NCBI GenBank assembly: GCA_009838175.1
Contig: VXSB01000003.1
Location: forward strand, 22,163-86,162
Direction of reading: 5' to 3'
Length of the DNA: 64,000 nt
From: Chloroflexota bacterium
GTDB lineage: Bacteria; Chloroflexota; Dehalococcoidia; Lucifugimonadales; Lucifugimonadaceae
In this document: positions 7,504 through 20,733 of the stretch, piece by piece
How the letters are laid out: every line of letters starts with the position of its first letter
Numbering within the stretch: position 1 is the first letter of the stretch
Notes under the pieces: generated by a model
What the model saw: only the letters and a program-made list of their open reading frames with translations
The model's database searches: none
Told to the model about the DNA's origin: nothing
Program-made: the position numbers and the translations under genes

Positions 7504-8820
7504 CTAAATCCGCCGCAACGCCAGTTGCCATACGGCTAGGGTTGCGACGATGGCTGCGATGCCGGCGACGATGAAGGCGAAGGGTGCGCCCCAGAGTTGA
7601 GCCAAGGTGCCCATTACTAGCGCGCCTAACGCCTGCGCGCCCCAGGTGAAGTTCATAAGGCTCATCACGCGTCCTCTGAAGGTGTCGGATGTGAGAGTCT
7701 GGACTACAGTGGTGCTCATGGTGCCTTTGACTACGGATAGTCCGCCTAGCAGACCGGCAATGGCGAGGGCGAAGATGAACAAGTCGACTGCGCCGAATGC
7801 GATGTAGCAGATGCCGACCGCGACTCCGCCGAGCGCGAGAAAGAGGGGCGGTTTAGATCGCGTTCCGATTAACGTGATTCCGAAGGTGCCGACCAATCCG
7901 CCGATACCGATGGCGAGGAGTAGTCGACCGTAGGTGGCTGTATCGCCGTTGTAGACCTCTTGGGTTACGACTGGAAGCAGCGTCTCCAACGGGGTTGCGA
8001 CGATGCCGATGATTACGCCGTAGCCGATGATTACAGCGATGGCGGATTCGCGCCGTACAAACTTGATGCCCTCCACCATGTCTCTTACGCGGGCGCGGGT
8101 AGTTGTTAATAAGCGGTTCCCCCTACGGGCACCCCCTGTGTTTTTGCTTTGCTGGGACCCCCTCTTAATCTCCCCCTGAGAGGGGGAGGGAGATGGGTTG
8201 CCTTGCGAAAGGGGCGTTGCTCCTGCAAAGTGCGGCTGGTGGTCCATGCGGAGCAGTGTGAGCACTGTAAGTACATAAGAGGCGGAGACGATGAAGAAGA
8301 GTCCTTCCATGCCGACGGCGGAGACTAGTGGGTGGAAGAGGGATGGTCCCAGAATCGCGGCGCCGCCGAATACGACGGAGTAGAGGGATATGGCGCTTGG
8401 CAGCTGTTCTCTGGGTACGAGCGATGCGACCATTGCGCCGCGGGTGGGGATGTCGAACGCCAACATTACGCCAGTAACGGCTGAGATGGTCAAGAGGTGC
8501 CATGCCTCGATCGTGTCGGTGGCTATCAACACTGCGGTGACCAATCCCGCGATCGCGAATAGGAAGCGGGTGAAGCGCAGGAGACGGAGACGGTTGACGG
8601 TATCTGCGACGACGCCTCCCCAGACCGAGAAGATCATCACCGGCGCCATCGTCGCGGCGGTTACCGAACCTAGAAGGATCTCCGACTCGGTGAGGGAGCG
8701 CATCAGCCATAGCCGACCATAGACGAGGGTCCACATGCCGACGTTGGAGAACGCGGCGGCGATCCAGAAGAGTCGGTACTCGCGGTAGCCGAAGACCGCA
8801 AAGCCGGTGCGTCTCAGCAC
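7504..8820 (-). CDS. MFS transporter
   Basis: 438 aa, about 12 hydrophobic segments; FAVFGYREYRLFWIAAAFSNVGMW start typical of the MFS_3 group. Carries a repeat-derived insertion in the central loop. Confidence 0.85.
   Translation of the reverse strand: MLRRTGFAVFGYREYRLFWIAAAFSNVGMWTLVYGRLWLMRSLTESEILLGSVTAATMAPVMIFSVWGGVVADTVNRLRLLRFTRFLFAIAGLVTAVLIATDTIEAWHLLTISAVTGVMLAFDIPTRGAMVASLVPREQLPSAISLYSVVFGGAAILGPSLFHPLVSAVGMEGLFFIVSASYVLTVLTLLRMDHQPHFAGATPLSQGNPSPSPSQGEIKRGSQQSKNTGGARRGNRLLTTTRARVRDMVEGIKFVRRESAIAVIIGYGVIIGIVATPLETLLPVVTQEVYNGDTATYGRLLLAIGIGGLVGTFGITLIGTRSKPPLFLALGGVAVGICYIAFGAVDLFIFALAIAGLLGGLSVVKGTMSTTVVQTLTSDTFRGRVMSLMNFTWGAQALGALVMGTLAQLWGAPFAFIVAGIAAIVATLAVWQLALRRI
8117..8217. 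repeat. Palindromic repeat inserted in frame within the MFS gene
   Basis: cccctcttaatctccccctgagagggggagggagatgggttgccttgcgaaaggggcg closely matches the intergenic copy at about 11606-11677. Confidence 0.8.
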
Positions 8821-10100
8821 TCGACGATACCGGCTGCGAGGTCGATGTCGTCTTGGAATCTGCTCACTGCGCCAGACAACACGTCGTCGATGTTGACGGC
8901 CTGATTGGTCTCGCCAGACTCCATAACGCCGTACGCCAATGCCAGCGCGGCCATTCCTTCTATACTGCCAACCTCTGGCGACCTCCCATCTGCAACCGCT
9001 CCGGCCAGATCCATGTACTCGATGGCGAGTATCTTGGCGTCGATTTTGCGGAAGTCCATCTCGTACGACGACATCCGACGTTCGCCGTCCCAGAGGGTGG
9101 ATGTAACGTCGTCGATCTCGAAGTCGGGTACGAGGTCGAGAAGCGCGTCGCCTTCGACGGCAGTCCCGTCCGCTCGGACGATGCGCGGGCTGGTGCCTTG
9201 TCGGCTCGGAGGGCGGTAGAGCGTGCCTTCACTGCCAACGACTACGGAGTCGCCGAGGCTGTAGCCATGCGATGCGTCGGTGATGATGAGTTGACCGGCG
9301 GCACCGGACGCGAAGCGTATCGTAGCGAACGCGGTGTCGACCGCGTCCTGCTCGACGATATCGCCGACATCTTCGCCGCCAGCTTCTTTTCGATGCGTAT
9401 ACATCGCGGCGAGGCCTGGTGCTTGGTCTGACATTGGTCGCATGATGCGCTCGGGGTCGTTGACATCGGTTTCGGCGTAGACGCGGACGGCTGGTCCCAT
9501 TAAATAAAGGAGGAGGTCTGCGTTGTGCACTCCGGCGTCGAGGACGACCCCGCCGGCTTGATCTTTCTTTGCGCGCCAGACCGTGCTGTGCATCACGCCG
9601 CGATGCGCGCTGCTGATCGAGAAGTCGACCGCGAAGTACGGTTTGCCGATCGCGCCCGAATCGATCAGCGATTTGGCGAGTCGGTTCATCGGATCGCGTC
9701 TGAAGTTCTCCGAGATGGAGAGCACTTTGCCGGTTTCATGCTCGACCGACTGCATCATCCGACACGCCGTGAGCGTCAAGCCCATCGGCTTCTCGACCAT
9801 GACGTTAAGCCCGGAACGCATCGCCTCGATCGCCAAGACGTGGTGCGCCGGAGTGCTGGTGACGATATCGACGGCGTCGAGCGCGAGCGCGTCGGCTGCC
9901 TCTGCGAGGCTTGGGAAGACTGATGGCGTCTCGGGTGTCGATTCGGCGATAACGCTGGCGACGGCTTCTGCGGAATCAATATGCGGGTCGCATACTGCGA
10001 CCATGCGTACGTCGTCGAAATATTTTCGGAGCTCGATATAGCCGGTAGCGTGCCGCATGCCCATGCCACCAGCACCGACTAGGGCGATGTTCAGAGTCAT
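8814..10100 (-). CDS. Gfo/Idh/MocA family oxidoreductase
   Basis: NIALVGAGGMGMRHATGY Rossmann start; VMVEKPMGLTLTA and DAGVHNADLLLYLMG motifs. Confidence 0.92.
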   Translation of the reverse strand: MTLNIALVGAGGMGMRHATGYIELRKYFDDVRMVAVCDPHIDSAEAVASVIAESTPETPSVFPSLAEAADALALDAVDIVTSTPAHHVLAIEAMRSGLNVMVEKPMGLTLTACRMMQSVEHETGKVLSISENFRRDPMNRLAKSLIDSGAIGKPYFAVDFSISSAHRGVMHSTVWRAKKDQAGGVVLDAGVHNADLLLYLMGPAVRVYAETDVNDPERIMRPMSDQAPGLAAMYTHRKEAGGEDVGDIVEQDAVDTAFATIRFASGAAGQLIITDASHGYSLGDSVVVGSEGTLYRPPSRQGTSPRIVRADGTAVEGDALLDLVPDFEIDDVTSTLWDGERRMSSYEMDFRKIDAKILAIEYMDLAGAVADGRSPEVGSIEGMAALALAYGVMESGETNQAVNIDDVLSGAVSRFQDDIDLAAGIVEC

Positions 10101-10121
10101 GGCTACAATGCTACGGGCTGT

Positions 10122-10247
10122 TTTGAACTATGATTTCGATGATTTTTTGATGATGGGCTATGATTTGGTGTTGCTCTCAGCGTGGCAGAGGTCCCGACAC
10201 TCGGCATCACAGTTCATCATTCGAAATCATGGCAATCATAGTTCAAA
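10122..10247. mobile_element. MITE-like element, copy 1
   Basis: TTTGAACTATGATTTCGATGATTT...GAAATCATGGCAATCATAGTTCAAA: 126 bp with imperfect ~25-bp terminal inverted repeats; matches copy 2 at 12409-12533. Confidence 0.85.
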
Positions 10248-11383
10248 GACCAACCTCCACATCGCGCGTCGTTATCGTTGGTGGCGGGGTTATTGGGTGT
10301 ATGACGGCTTACTATTTGACGCGGGCGGGGGTTTCGGATGTGGTGGTTGTTGAGCGTGAGGGGGTTGCTTCGGGGGCTAGTGGGTACTCGGCGGGGATGC
10401 TGACGCCGTATTCGGGGTCTAATGATCCGGGGTTGCTGGCGCTTTCTAGTGCTTCGTTGGAGCTTCACGCGGAACTTGCCGAGGAGCTACCGGCGGTTAC
10501 CGGGATCGATCATGGGTACGACATGGTGCCGTATCTTCGTTGCACGTTTGCGGAGTCTGGTTACAACGAGGCTAGAAAGTTCATGGACGATCGCGTAGCG
10601 GATGGTCTCGAAGCTGAGTGGTTGACGGGTGAAGAGGCGCGGTCAGTGTGCGATTGGTTGAGTGATGAGGTTGAGGGGGCGTGTCTGACATCGATAGAAC
10701 CTTCTGTTGATTCGCGGCTGCTGACGAAGTCGGTGCTGAAGGCGGCTGAGATGGGGGGAGCGCGATTGGTGGATGGTGAGGTTGTGGGGATGGATTCCCG
10801 CCTGCGCGGGAATGACGTGGGCGTAGTCCTCGCTGATGGATCGACTATCGAGGCGGATGTGGTTGTGCTGGCGATGGGGCCTTGGTCGAAGAATGCGAGT
10901 GGCTGGCTGGGATACGAGATTCCTGTGGAGCCGCAGAAGGGTGAGCTTCTTTATATGTACACAGGAGGCGATCATCCGAAACCGCCGATGACGATGCACA
11001 ACATGGACGATGGCGGAGTGATCTTCCCGCGTCGCCTCTCGCCGACGATACTCGGTGCGACTAAAGAGGACGGCAAGGGTTACGATCGCGAGCCGTCGGA
11101 GTACGCTTGGGAGTTCATAATCCCGCGTGTCCAGCGACTTTCTCAGCGGATAGACAGGTCAGTGGTCTCGCATCAAACGGCGTGTCTGCGTCCGATGCCT
11201 TTGGACGGCAAGCCGTATGTGGGTCTTGCGCCAGGTTGGGAGAATGTCTACATCGCGTCTGGGCACTGGTCGGAGGGCGTCCACTACGGTCCCTTGACGG
11301 GCAAATCGATAGCGGAGTTGATCACGGATGGTGAGACGTCGACCGATATTTCGGCGATTGATGCGGGGCGGGTTGAACTATGA
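10229..11383 (+). CDS. FAD-dependent oxidoreductase (DAO / glycine oxidase-like)
   Basis: RVVIVGGGVIGCMTAYYLTRAGVSDVVVVEREG nucleotide-binding motif; C-terminal CLRPMPLDGKPYVGLAPGWENVYIASGHWSEGVHYGPLTGKSIAELI. Start at ATG 10229 (MAIIVQRP), in frame with the longer ORF. Confidence 0.9.
   Translation: MAIIVQRPTSTSRVVIVGGGVIGCMTAYYLTRAGVSDVVVVEREGVASGASGYSAGMLTPYSGSNDPGLLALSSASLELHAELAEELPAVTGIDHGYDMVPYLRCTFAESGYNEARKFMDDRVADGLEAEWLTGEEARSVCDWLSDEVEGACLTSIEPSVDSRLLTKSVLKAAEMGGARLVDGEVVGMDSRLRGNDVGVVLADGSTIEADVVVLAMGPWSKNASGWLGYEIPVEPQKGELLYMYTGGDHPKPPMTMHNMDDGGVIFPRRLSPTILGATKEDGKGYDREPSEYAWEFIIPRVQRLSQRIDRSVVSHQTACLRPMPLDGKPYVGLAPGWENVYIASGHWSEGVHYGPLTGKSIAELITDGETSTDISAIDAGRVEL
10792..10816. 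repeat. GGATTCCCGCCTGCGCGGGAATGAC palindrome within CDS
   Basis: Perfect ATTCCCGC-CTGC-GCGGGAAT type palindrome translated as DSRLRGND. Confidence 0.85.
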
Positions 11384-11414
11384 TTGCGATGATTTTTGAT
11401 GATGGGCTATGATG
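11373..11414. mobile_element. Partial copy of the MITE-like element (left half only)
   Basis: TTGAACTATGATTGCGATGATTTTTGATGATGGGCTATGATG matches the left ends of the copies at 10122 and 12409. Confidence 0.8.
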
Positions 11415-11434
11415 CCCCTCGCCCCGGCCCCTCT

Positions 11435-11460
11435 GGATTCCGGCTTTCGCCGGAATGACG
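11435..11460. repeat. GGATTCCGGCTTTCGCCGGAATGACG palindrome
   Basis: Arms ATTCCGGC/GCCGGAAT; same class as the palindrome at 10792. Confidence 0.75.
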
Positions 11461-11530
11461 AAAGAAGGTGCCGGAAAGACGTAGGAAGGTGTGGGAATGA
11501 CGGTGGTGGTGCAGGCGCGTGGGTGTATGA

Positions 11531-11677
11531 ACCCCCTGCGTCTCGCTGCGCTTGACGCGTCCCCCTTTTGCTGACGCAAAAAGGGGAGGGCATCCCCCGC
11601 GGAACCCCCTCTGAATCTCCCCCTGAGAGGGGGAGGGAGAAGGATTCGCGTCCTCTTCGTTTCGCGAAAGGGGCGTG
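11531..11677. repeat. Composite GC-rich dispersed repeat
   Basis: Contains GGGCATCCCCCGCGG (also near 37755 and, as gggcatcccccgcg, at 63971) and AATCTCCCCCTGAGAGGGGGAGGGAGA...GCGAAAGGGGCG (also near 8167). Confidence 0.75.
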
Positions 11678-11713
11678 CCGATTTGGTGTAATCTGTACGA
11701 AGAGCATTGGATC

Positions 11714-11947
11714 ATGCAAAACACGCTGCACATCACCACGAAGGTATTGCCTGGCGGCAAGATCGAGATCGTAAACGAAAAGCTTCCAGTGGGGGAAGCG
11801 GTTGACGTTGTGGTTCGTCACGCCTCAGCCTCAGCGCGCCGCTCCGCAGTCGATATTCTGAACGAAGCACCCGGGCACCGTCTATTCAAGACGGCAGATG
11901 ACGTGAATTCCCTGCTGAAGGATGAACGTGCCTCGTGGGACAGCTGA
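11714..11947 (+). CDS. Putative antitoxin of a PIN-type TA pair
   Basis: MQNTLHITTKVLPGGKIEIVNEKLPVGEAVDVVVRH...SLLKDERASWDS; a small ORF overlapping the start of the downstream PIN gene. The ORF track extends to an alternative GTG at 11675. Confidence 0.7.
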   Translation: MQNTLHITTKVLPGGKIEIVNEKLPVGEAVDVVVRHASASARRSAVDILNEAPGHRLFKTADDVNSLLKDERASWDS

Positions 11948-12372
11948 TCCTTCCTTCAAGCGGACCTGTCTATCTGGACACCAGCGGGTTCATCTACAGT
12001 GTGGAGCGCATCGAACCATATCACGGGTTGCTTGAGCCGATGTGGCGGCAGGCCCAGTCCGGACAGTTCACCATTGTGAGCAGCGATTTGGTGGTATTGG
12101 AGACCCTGGTCAAGCCTCTGCGTGATGGCGACAGAATCGTCGAGACGCTCTTCAGATCGTTATTCGACGCGATTGAGGTCAACTTGATCCCGGTGACGCG
12201 TGCTCTTTGGGAAGAAGCCGCCATTCTTCGTGCCGAAACTGGATTGAAGACGCCCGATGCAATTCACGCGGCTACAGCTCTGCGCGCCCAGTGCACTCTC
12301 TTTGTCACCAACGATGACGACTTTCGACGCGTTGAAGGCTTGCCAGTCGTTGTCTTGGATGATCTCGGATAA
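11935..12372 (+). CDS. PIN domain (VapC-like) toxin
   Basis: PVYLDTSGFIYSVE...SDLVVLETLVKPLRDGD...LKTPDAIHAATALRAQCTLFVTNDDDF: acidic residues placed as in PIN domains. Confidence 0.88.
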   Translation: MGQLILPSSGPVYLDTSGFIYSVERIEPYHGLLEPMWRQAQSGQFTIVSSDLVVLETLVKPLRDGDRIVETLFRSLFDAIEVNLIPVTRALWEEAAILRAETGLKTPDAIHAATALRAQCTLFVTNDDDFRRVEGLPVVVLDDLG

Positions 12373-12408
12373 CTGCGCCCAGTACCTCTATACGCCGCGC
12401 CGCATGTT

Positions 12409-12533
12409 TTTGAACTATGATTTCGATGATTTTTGATGATGGGCTATGATGTGGTGCTGCTCTCGGCGGGTCGGAGGTGCCTACGCTCACCATCACAGTT
12501 CATCGTTCAAAATCTTGGCGATCATAGTTCAAA
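12409..12533. mobile_element. MITE-like element, copy 2
   Basis: TTTGAACTATGATTTCGATGATTTTTGATGATGGGCTATGATG...CAAAATCTTGGCGATCATAGTTCAAA: 125 bp with TIRs matching copy 1. Confidence 0.85.
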
Positions 12534-12718
12534 GGCGCAGGGGTGAAATCCTGTAGAATCTCTGCGAAAAGAGGCACGCCCATGTATTGCGCGGTTTTGT
12601 GTACACTGGTATGATGTTTGCGTAAGTCGAAGAGGCGCGCGCTTGTTTCGATTCACGCGCGCATCAGACTGCTAACGACGGAATGGCGACAAGTCAAAGC
12701 TTGTAAAGGAAACACAAC

Positions 12719-15700
12719 GTGATGAAATCCCCTACATCACTGATTAGGTTCAGGAACGCGGTGGGCGTGATGCTGGCTATGTCGGCAATCTTCGCCGTCG
12801 TCGTAAGCACCATCTCTATGCCCGGCGACAGGGCGTTCGGGCAGACGGCGACCATGACCAACAGCGCGAAAGTTCAGGGCGCGTTAGATGCGTTGGAAGC
12901 AGCGGCGGCGGATCCTGACTTCAACGACAGCGTTGCCGGCGGCCAAACTTCGGACGGGAAGATCACTCAGTTGCAAGCTGCTGTGGCTGCGATCCCTACC
13001 AATATTGCACCTGACGCGGACAATAACGATGCCGCGGACGTGGACGACGACAATAACCCTCTTCCGAACTTCGCGATCGAAGTTGACAACCCTGGGTATG
13101 ACGCGGACGAGACCGCTGCTGAATATGCGGAAAAGATAAGCGCGAACGCAGCGCTAACTGACGGCGGCGGCAGTGCCGTGACCAACGGACTTAATGAGTA
13201 TCTATCTGACTTGGCCGCCGCGAGGTTAGCCACGGACGGTACCAGTGAGAGTGAAGCGTTGGCGGCGGCGAATACTGCCTTTACCGCGTTGAGGGGAGCC
13301 CTGTGGGACAGCGACACCGTTGCCGACACCGATGCGTTGGCACTATCTGATGCCACCAAGTCAACCTTGGACGGGTTGAACAACGGTTTGCTGACATCAA
13401 CCCCTGATGATCTAGCGGCTTTCAGGACATCAGTGGAAGACGCGCTGAAAAATGACGCGAACTGGTACCCGGAGGACCCTGCCACTGCCCTACCGACAGC
13501 AAATCTGACGGAAGCCGATGGCACTACTACGCTTGTCATTGCGGATCAGCTCAACGCGCTGTTCAATCCCAATACCGCCGATGACGGAACGGATGACACT
13601 GGTGCACTAGTCACCTTGACAGCCGCCCGAACTGCCGAGAGCACCGCGCTAGCTGGCGCGAAGGCAATACTCGAGGCCGTAAAGATGGCCGTTGATGGCG
13701 CTACCTTGCCTGCCGTTGACATGGCGATATACACAGCAGTTTCTCCCAGAACCACTGAGGCGGAGGAAAAAGCGGAAGCCGACATGCAACTGGCCACCGC
13801 TAAGATGCTGCTGATGGAGCTGGTAGGTCGATTGAATGCCAGCAACGCTGAAGAGTTCACCGCGTTCGACGAGCTTGCCGCTCTGAAGACAGCGTTGAGG
13901 GGAGGCATGGGAAGCATCCCATCGATCGGTGTGACGATGAAGAGGCTGGATGCGATAGAGACCGCGTTGCTGAAGAATAACGCGGAAGATCTAGCTGATA
14001 GTAGTGACGGCGCGGGTGACGGCGAGTTGTCTATGTTGAAAGACGACTCTCTAACCCACATCATCACGGCACTCGGCGAACTCTCCGATTTGGATGGAAC
14101 CGGCGCGCAGATGATGGCGATGCGAGACCTTGATGCATTGCTCACCGCGGTGGACAATTCGGTCATGAAGACCATGTTCACGGCGGATACTCCGGCTGGT
14201 GATCTGAGCACTGAGGCGATGGCCGTGAGTGACGCGTTGGCCGCGTTCGCGGCGGTCAAGACCGCTCTATTGGCTAAGCACGTCGACCCTGCAGATGTCG
14301 ATGCCGCCACCATGGCTTTGAACACAATCGCGGATGGCGATGTTGGAGCTGGTCTGAATGGCATTATCGAAGCCGCGGCGCCTCTCTTGAACACCGATCT
14401 GATTCCGGATGCCGAAGCTACGACTGCCTTTGACGAGAGTGCGTTGTTCACGGCATTGAAGTCCAGCATTTTGGCGAGTGCTCTCCCAGAGGAGCCAAGC
14501 GCTACGGATGCCGAAGTTACGGCCGCTGAACTGTCGATGGCGCTGGGGCTTACGCGTACAGAGCCTGATCCGGCGACCCCTGAAGACTCTGCTGACGATA
14601 CGTTGGCAACCAATGACTTCGCCGCGTTCCTGAATAATGTGGCGATGCTCGAAGACATCATCGATACGGTGGACATCACCGAAGGCACCACCGGCATTCA
14701 AGCTTCGACAGCCTTGGATGCTCTTGTCACCGCGTTGGAAGCTACTGTGAACACCAAGTTCAATGCTGCTGATACTGACAGTGGTGACACTGTAGTTCTC
14801 GATAACGCCAACGAAAGAGCTGAAGATTTCAGGAGTAGCACACTTGCTTATAACGACTTCTCAGCGGTGGCGGCATTGCAAGCCGCGTTGGGCGACTTGG
14901 ACGGTGGCGACCTCGACACGAAGGTCAAGACAGCGAGGGATGCGCTGATTGCGGCATACGACAACCGCGACGGACTGAATGCCGACGCCGAAGCTGAGAT
15001 CTCAACCGCGTATCAGGAGCTGATCAGCAAGGGCAGCACCCAGCACGCTTTCGCTCAGAAGGCCGCTCTGCTAGAGCTTAAGTCTGCGCTCGAGACTGCT
15101 GGCGACGACTCCAATGATTTGGAGATGGCGATCCAGAACGCTTTGACGACGCAGTCGCCTGAGCAACAGCAGGCGCAAGCGATGATCTCGCGCATCGAGC
15201 CGGCGATCCGCGGCGCTACGGTGTCCGGCGGTGACAAGGTCACGCTCGAAGTCAAGATCTACGGTCTGCAAAACGTTATGGACCAGAAGCTGGCATACGG
15301 TACGGACGGAGAAGCTGACACTGATGACGACCCGACGTTCGATTGGGGCAGCGCCTCATCCGACACCGGACCATCGATCACCTACACCGCTCCGAATTCG
15401 CCTGGTACGCACACGGTCACAGCATCGCTTGACTCCAACGAGTGCTACCACGCAGACAGCGATGAGCAGATGGAGAAGTGCTCGGCATCGTTCGAGATCC
15501 GAGTGCGCCGTCCGTCGGCTCCGCAACAGCCTGACCCGGCTCCGGTCAACCCGCCTGGTGACATTCCTGAGCTCCTAGCGGATGACGGTGGCAACCAGTA
15601 CGCAGTGTTCACGCCTGAAGAAGGCGGTACGTTCGACGCAGGCGAAGGCTACTCGATCACCGCTGCTGCTGGCGCGGTCCCGAACAACGAGTTCATCGGA

Positions 15701-19134: not shown

Positions 19135-20733
19135 TCACTCTTTCGCGTAGTGGTCGCGCTTCAAGAAGGTGTTAGCCCAGGATGCGGTGCCTTTGAGTGA
19201 GGCGTCGGTGAAGGTTACAGGGTGGTTGAGCATATCTTCTTCTTCGCCGTAGAGTTTGAGGGTGTTGTAGGCGCGGAGGTAGATGCAGTCTTTGTCGAGG
19301 ATTTCGCACTTGCCGGCTCGAGTGCCGCCGCAGGGTCCGTTGCGCTGGTTCTTGACGCACTGGGACTCCGGGCAGAGTTCGGCGATTTCGGGGAGCGAGC
19401 AGTCGCCGCAGTCTCGGCAGCCGTATAGCGGCACCTTCATCATCTGCTCGGCGGCGTGGGCGACTTTGGTTGCGATTTTGCTCTTATCGATCTGGCGGTA
19501 GATAGCCGCGCTGGCGTTGAAAGCAGGAGCGTCGTGATCGAATATCGCGTGTTTTCCGAAGCGGCCGATGCGATACGCGAAGTCAGGGTGAAGAGCGCGC
19601 CTGACAAACGACGCGGGACGACCTCGGCGGGCATCATATTCGCGGTTCAATTCGTCAGAAGCAGTGTTGGTGCTGTCGCCAGGTTCGAAGAGGTAGAACT
19701 CGTCGGGTTGAGAGTAGCCGATCTCGGCGGCGGCATCTTTCCAGCCGTCGCCGGTGATGCTTTCGGCGATGTCGAGTATCTGCTCGATACGTTTGTATGT
19801 GAGCCTGCCGGAGAGATAGACGCCGCTGTAGCCGGTTCCTCGCAGGACGGCGATCTGCTTGGCCGCGAATTCGTTGAAGAATGCACGTCCGCGGTCTTTT
19901 GATTTGGCGGCGCGGTTCGCCACCTCGACAAGTTCGGAGTTGACGGCGACACCGGGGATGCCCCACCGACCAAAGAATCGTGCAGCAGGTGCGCTCAGGA
20001 CAAAGATCGAGCCGAGGATCGGCGGTGCTTCCTCGCCGTGTTTGAGGTTGAGGTATCGGATTAGCTCGTGATGTTTTCGGGCATCGTACCCGATCTGAGA
20101 TACGAGCCACTTGGCGCCAGTTCGGAGCTTGAAATCCATCTTGTAGAGCTGCGTCAGATACTCGCCCTCATAGAGCTTGAAGGGGTTGACTGCGGCTCCG
20201 GGATGGAATGCAGTGTGTCCGAGTTCAGTTTCGGCGTTGCGCCGTCCTGGAAGCGTTACACGCAACCCTTCGTTCATGCGACGTATCAGCTCCAGCAGAC
20301 CTACAGAGTCGGTGTCGAAAACGGGTTGAGCCTGCCCCGAGAAACCGTCTACCGGGTAATCGCCGGAGAGACAGAGGATGTTGCGGAATCCGAGGCTGGA
20401 CAGAGACCACAATCGTCCTTCGAGAGCATTGCGATTGTAATCCTTACAAGAGAGGTTGATTACGACCTCGGCATCGCCATCCAGCAGTTCGCGGCCCAGC
20501 GTTTCGGGAGTGATGTGCGGATTACCGCCGGGGTTGTCGGTGAAACAGACGGCGTCGACTCTTCCGCCCTGTGATGCTGCTTTGGCGAGGTCTACGGAGT
20601 GTCGAGCGCCTTCTTCCATGGCGAGGCCGCGCGAGGTTTCGATCTCGATCGCGACCTTGAAACCGTCGGATAGGCGTGCGATTATGCCGGATTGACGGAC
20701 GAGAGAATCTTCATCGGAGGGCATGAAGTTCAA
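19135..20733 (-). CDS. Methylenetetrahydrofolate reductase-like protein with C-terminal cysteine-rich MTHFR_C/MetV-like domain
   Basis: IEIETSRG...FTDNPGGNPHITPETLGRELL...CLSGDYP...NEGLRV plus C-terminal YGCRDCGDCSLPEIAELCPESQCVKNQRNGPCGG. Confidence 0.85.
   Translation of the reverse strand: MNFMPSDEDSLVRQSGIIARLSDGFKVAIEIETSRGLAMEEGARHSVDLAKAASQGGRVDAVCFTDNPGGNPHITPETLGRELLDGDAEVVINLSCKDYNRNALEGRLWSLSSLGFRNILCLSGDYPVDGFSGQAQPVFDTDSVGLLELIRRMNEGLRVTLPGRRNAETELGHTAFHPGAAVNPFKLYEGEYLTQLYKMDFKLRTGAKWLVSQIGYDARKHHELIRYLNLKHGEEAPPILGSIFVLSAPAARFFGRWGIPGVAVNSELVEVANRAAKSKDRGRAFFNEFAAKQIAVLRGTGYSGVYLSGRLTYKRIEQILDIAESITGDGWKDAAAEIGYSQPDEFYLFEPGDSTNTASDELNREYDARRGRPASFVRRALHPDFAYRIGRFGKHAIFDHDAPAFNASAAIYRQIDKSKIATKVAHAAEQMMKVPLYGCRDCGDCSLPEIAELCPESQCVKNQRNGPCGGTRAGKCEILDKDCIYLRAYNTLKLYGEEEDMLNHPVTFTDASLKGTASWANTFLKRDHYAKE

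Follow-up and report, generated by a model that had tools for sequence, protein, structure and literature searches.

Miniature hairpin repeats in a Chloroflexota genome share their ends with an element carrying GxxExxY, a candidate mobilising nuclease of the PD-(D/E)XK fold

Repeats and genes at the locus

The window analysed here is a stretch of 64,000 nucleotides from the 2.6-Mb draft genome of a Chloroflexota bacterium (the host, G000). The part under study contains three copies of a repeat (A, B and C) and four genes, as follows:

8814..10100, minus strand: Gfo/Idh/MocA oxidoreductase, outside the element; adjoins the FAD oxidoreductase in G004, G005 and G006
10122..10247, plus strand: repeat A, an empty doublet of two inverted 43-bp ends (10122-10164 and 10205-10247) with a spacer of about 40 bp
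10226..11383, plus strand: FAD-dependent oxidoreductase (PF01266, DAO), an inherited gene outside the element; putative start codon within repeat A
11373..11414, plus strand: repeat B, a single 42-bp end that carries the oxidoreductase stop codon
11675..11947, plus strand: putative antitoxin ORF, no Pfam match; homology with G003 and G004 begins at about 11712
11935..12372, plus strand: PIN-domain toxin (PF01850), present at other loci in G003 and G004
12409..12533, plus strand: repeat C, also an empty doublet (ends 12409-12451 and 12491-12533); identity to repeat A, 87 %

An earlier, sequence-only reading of this DNA had described copies of a MITE-like element at these positions. The copies are real: A and C (125-126 bp) are full-length, their identity extending across the full 126 bp, and B is a left end only. 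The terminal inverted repeats, given as about 25 bp long, are indeed inverted but longer, since a search with an end profile resolved each of A and C into two inverted ends of 43 bp. The sequence TTGAACTATGATT, with at most two mismatches allowed, was found at six sites in the window versus 0.7 expected, and no shuffled sequence reached six. Folded as single strands, repeats A and C each form one long hairpin (z -5.3 and -4.6, respectively; -4.6 to -16.5 across four doublets), and a single end alone gives no fold (0 kcal/mol). An Rfam search of the window returned no match. That the window holds no transposase, as had been noted, is borne out for the 25 of 75 Pfam families listed for its large ORFs.

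Synteny of the neighbouring genes

It had further been proposed that the repeats bracket, and may have mobilised, two cargo segments, i.e. the FAD oxidoreductase and the toxin-antitoxin (TA) pair. The former lies between repeats A and B only in a loose sense: its plausible start ATGGCAATCATAGTTCAAA falls in the right end of A and its stop codon inside B (GTT GAA CTA TGA, ..GRVEL*). In G004, G005 and G006, three genomes of the host genus, the orthologues are transcribed in the direction of the Gfo/Idh gene, which they directly adjoin, and the junction showed no end; the oxidoreductase is therefore inherited and not cargo, and it keeps its neighbourhood where repeats are not seen instead of being absent together with them. 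Relative to Gfo/Idh, the window copy is inverted compared with these three genomes (window 8814-11383) and the inversion breakpoints coincide with repeats A and B, the simplest reading being that a later inversion between the inverted copies A and B flipped the gene.

As for the TA pair, it occupies unrelated loci in G003 and G004. It is missing at the syntenic spot in G001, where end B is present at the orthologous gene end and another ORF replaces the TA pair and repeat C. At the G003 (L059, about 1260-2000) and G004 (L060) loci, the pair begins directly behind a GTTCAAAC end that belongs to a sister family of repeats, and the adjoining ends point outward. Judged from this comparison, the pair varies horizontally, but its borders do not match those of a single element. 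A cassette or composite transposon model was thus rejected on account of synteny with relatives. Separately, window positions 12587-12834, just upstream of and into an ORF of 1160 aa with a C-terminal membrane anchor-like tail, are 94 % identical to positions 237-484 of L059, a different G003 locus, which is above the approximately 70-77 % of other G003 matches.

The coding relative and the end family in the host genus

Using an end model with a cut-off of E <= 0.01, we detected about 50 sites in the host genome, mostly single ends and often near other palindromic repeats; the repeat is thus not unique to this locus. The ends (consensus TTTGAACTATGATTGCGATGATTTTnGATGATGGGCTGTGATG) share a plan of about 43 bp, in which GAAC precedes four TGAT boxes at a spacing of 9-10 bp, and have the border sequence GTCTGAAC. 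The spacing is 9, 10 and 10 bp in half of the copies used, i.e. about one helical turn. Ends in SAR202 genomes often adjoin other abundant palindromic repeats, such as CCCCTTTTTGCG..., ATTCCCGCC...GGGAATGACG and CCCTTTGTCCTTCGGACATTTCCCCC (window 11423-11680; L022; L009; L024).

The host genome has a single GxxExxY gene (C32:19513-19854). This gene sits between inverted ends of the family (19413-19455 and 19925-19967), which together delimit a one-ORF element of about 555 bp. Its product scores 123 bits with TIGR04256 (cut-off 35) and 121 bits with PF13366 (PDDEXK_3; cut-off 22). A transposase with matching ends had been suggested as the thing to look for in the host genome; what the matching ends enclose is instead this PD-(D/E)XK nuclease gene. 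The two ends of the C32 element differ and each window doublet keeps one of either type: the right end of A is 88 % identical to the left end of the C32 element, and the left end of C is 86 % identical to its right end. The window copies resemble this GxxExxY element in an emptied state, with both ends kept and the gene missing. Their description as a non-autonomous, MITE-like element stands, as they are dispersed, have inverted ends and no ORF, and share these ends with a coding relative in the genome.

Within the genus, the GxxExxY-positive genomes G000, G003 and G006 have 50, 30 and 15 end-model matches, respectively, versus five in G004 and one in G005, which are GxxExxY-negative. In two fragmented genomes, 24 (G001) and 10 (G002) sites match, and no GxxExxY gene was detected in either. 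A locus of a public MAG of the SAR202 cluster (Chloroflexota; L064) has long flanking stretches in common with the locus L031 of G003, which belongs to the host genus; the window DNA is thus very probably from a SAR202 genome.

The GxxExxY protein

Four residues, E31, D70, E80 and K82, are invariant across 33 homologues and correspond to the set expected of PD-(D/E)XK enzymes; identity between the Chloroflexota and Bacteroidota proteins is about 60 %. Searching PDB sequences revealed no relative of GxxExxY. The best PDB match of the AF2 model (pLDDT 89) is Cas4 SSO0001 (Foldseek E 1e-4), followed by the lambda-exonuclease group. Repair or defence is the role of some similarly small PD-(D/E)XK nucleases, a point against the mobilising function proposed below.

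Pairing of GxxExxY with flanking repeats across phyla

In the relatives, every GxxExxY gene found has its own flanking periodic repeat. Flanks were also analysed at 80 public-genome loci from many phyla, 76 of them testable, and at 30 Bacteroidia loci, with windows 1 kb away as controls. Repeats common to both flanks were present at 58 of the 76 loci (versus 2 of 60 controls) and at 28 of the 30 Bacteroidia loci (versus 1 of 30), i.e. in 3 % of the control windows. A stricter first analysis, in which other genes were the controls, had found IR >= 20 in 41 % versus 1.7 %.

One end architecture extends from Chloroflexota to Bacteroidota, the ends of the latter reading GTCTGAACYNNGATTNNNNNGATT... 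The pattern TCTGAACYNNGATTNNNNNGATT is present in 19 of 30 GxxExxY genomes, with a maximum of 35 copies, whereas none of the 30 contains the reversed control. G157 and G413 have just two copies each, which are the two ends of a GxxExxY element of about 455-462 bp. Among 296 sampled Bacteroidia genomes, 181 (61 %) have a GxxExxY gene: 30 of the 35 pattern-positive genomes versus 151 of the 261 others (Fisher p = 8e-4, kinship ignored).

Inward-facing pairs of ends fall into two classes, those of 65-190 bp without a gene and those of 0.45-1.1 kb with GxxExxY. Among the matches listed, all eight pairs of 350-1100 bp (G114, G116, G120, G157, G255, G273, G400 and G413), which were found by eye, contain GxxExxY as verified by sequence or HMM, and none of the pairs of up to 200 bp does. 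The coding form measures approximately 450-660 bp and holds one GxxExxY gene of about 125-140 aa.

The repeat sequence itself is not universal, since the GxxExxY genes of G064 and G090 are flanked by different periodic repeats (CGCAGATT, CGCAGAG; L029, L030 and L033: TCCGCAGATTACGCAGATTACGCAGATT; TTAATCGCAGAGTACGCAAAGGACGCAAAG). This suggests that several widespread repeat families share GxxExxY as partner gene. The GxxExxY-repeat pairing is general, being found again in several bacterial phyla.

We considered whether a conventional IS transposase could act in trans on ordinary MITEs, with GxxExxY as a hitchhiking passenger. Doublets, single ends and the gene-bearing form share their ends, as any end-recognising enzyme predicts, and five pattern-positive Bacteroidia genomes are without GxxExxY. 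However, inward pairs of IS size that hold a transposase were not encountered: neither a DDE/DEDD/HUH transposase nor a RAYT lies between the ends in the pairs inspected, the pairs of 350-1100 bp listed carry GxxExxY throughout, and one 2.3-kb inward pair that was searched for a transposase contains ordinary genes. The recurrence of GxxExxY across phyla, with the same architecture and an invariant active site, also argues against a passenger, and we consider this explanation unlikely.

Presence/absence polymorphism and insertion sites

In Parabacteroides G123, a 476-bp GxxExxY element occupies an operon junction at which the relative G423 has 51 bp, and at least five doublets of this genome (L241, L244, L246, L251 and L256) have no counterpart at the orthologous gene ends in relatives. 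Within the host genus, a single-ended unit of about 145 bp (C25:5778) is absent in G001, G002 and G003; in its place they carry 27 bp or an unrelated sequence. Where several relatives are without the copy, insertion is favoured over loss, and absence at orthologous sites indicates that the GxxExxY element and the doublets are mobile.

Insertions are often fused to gene 3' ends, the end providing the stop codon (e.g. ..SEL*). According to Pfam, 7 of 10 fused upstream genes checked encode type I restriction specificity subunits (hsdS, PF01420); the hsdS-fused GxxExxY elements include L073, L083, L110, L120, L125, L140 and L228, and some of them are followed by another copy of the hsdS tail. Among 32 two-ended elements, no regular target-site duplication was found, although duplications of 2-5 bp could escape such an analysis; direct repeats comprised one exact of 23 bp and two imperfect of 33-36 bp. 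In SAR202 genomes, clean target-site duplications are not resolvable, because the intergenic regions are full of other palindromes.

Some observations concern the surroundings of G123 copies. The doublet L246 (G123:C2:397525) lies between CTCAAGGAAA and TTTCCTTGA, which resembles the loop of a terminator hairpin; hairpin loops may be preferred as targets. Several single ends (L261, L262, L265 and L266) run into a non-coding, strongly palindromic repeat of about 400-470 bp (GAGCGCTGAAGGCGCG...), so that a larger hairpin repeat is capped by one of the G123 end types as well; the interior of these Parabacteroides single-ended repeats is non-coding palindromic DNA, in which no transposase was found.

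The hsdS fusions bear on a homing-type explanation, in which GxxExxY would cut element-free targets such as hsdS ends, and the element would spread via homologous repair and not by transposition. The PF01420 genes read straight into the end, the direct repeats of 23-36 bp at three insertions are those of the hsdS tail, and the fold is nearest to Cas4 and exonucleases, all of which this explanation would accommodate. Yet the genes next to most copies in G000 and G123 are unrelated, a dispersal for which a single homing site cannot account, and gene-less doublets have spread as well. Homing is accordingly a quite unlikely explanation.

The location at gene 3' ends, the stop codons supplied at some of them and the strong folding could also be those of host-functional structures, i.e. 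bidirectional terminators or hairpins that stabilise mRNA, which recombination would have amplified, with the GxxExxY link as a by-product. We judge this highly improbable: it gives no account of GxxExxY as the gene bracketed by inward ends, and it leaves unexplained why different GxxExxY genes have different end families.

A candidate mobilising nuclease

The reading that we prefer is that GxxExxY is probably a nuclease mobilising the elements that carry its ends, empty doublets included. A minimal GxxExxY element would mobilise its own copy as well as gene-less hairpin doublets. The protein would recognise and cut the ends, possibly as a hairpin or single strand, and doublets and single ends of the same genome would spread too, preferably to gene boundaries. 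The ends, their two size classes, the gene-repeat association and the presence/absence polymorphism are read directly from the sequences; catalysis by GxxExxY, its recognition of the ends and the intermediate are features that we infer. In a broader form of this proposal, to which we give an even chance, mobile elements below 500 bp would form a class that spans phyla and has GxxExxY as its sole enzyme, which would also produce REPIN-like hairpin doublets.

If GxxExxY moves its own ends, a common family without assigned function would gain a role, and an abundant class of hairpin repeats would be explained. A stand-alone PD-(D/E)XK nuclease would then drive a class of mobile elements and would be, beside REPIN/RAYT, a second, independent nuclease sustaining miniature hairpin DNA. 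At about 450 bp, against the sizes of IS elements, the GxxExxY element would rank among the smallest self-contained bacterial mobile elements. Our survey of the GxxExxY literature, which covered open-access articles, found no report of mobility. Within the same open-access scope, work on the end sequences, on REPINs and on hsdS does not describe the GxxExxY-repeat pairing, and priority is thus not established.

Comparison with known systems

Like MITEs of bacterial IS elements, the doublets have terminal inverted repeats, are non-coding and dispersed, and have a larger coding relative in the genome. Unlike in MITEs, this relative has no DDE/DEDD transposase and there is no regular target-site duplication; with the same ends as the window doublets, it encodes a PD-(D/E)XK nuclease, the putative mobilising enzyme. 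The pairs inspected differ in the same way from bacterial insertion sequences, as they hold no DDE/DEDD/HUH transposase between their ends.

With the Cas4 / lambda-exonuclease group, which provides the nearest solved folds, GxxExxY shares the active-site layout. Unlike Cas4, it is shorter (18 % identity to Cas4 SSO0001) and no exonuclease partner genes were seen.

PD-(D/E)XK nucleases of the Rpn / Transposase_31 family (PF04754) have been linked to DNA mobilisation or recombination (PMC5350276). They offer a precedent for a PD-(D/E)XK enzyme in DNA mobilisation, as proposed for GxxExxY, although the Pfam family differs. We know of no defined terminal repeat pair for Rpn. Rpn proteins were later described as anti-phage toxin-antitoxin systems (PMC10327210).

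The REPIN/RAYT system consists of REP doublets and REP-associated tyrosine transposases (RAYTs), which have been proposed to mobilise REPINs (PMC3116915, PMC8266576). Both systems have short inverted hairpin doublets, single ends, extragenic or gene-end sites and usually one or few associated nuclease genes flanked by the same repeats. They differ in the enzyme, which is of the PD-(D/E)XK fold (PF13366) and not a HUH/Y1 tyrosine transposase, and in the ends, which in the GxxExxY system are about 43 bp long, have a 9-10 bp TGAT period and are non-palindromic alone. The gene between the ends not being that of a HUH/Y1 transposase, the GxxExxY system is no member of REPIN/RAYT, yet it would work like it.
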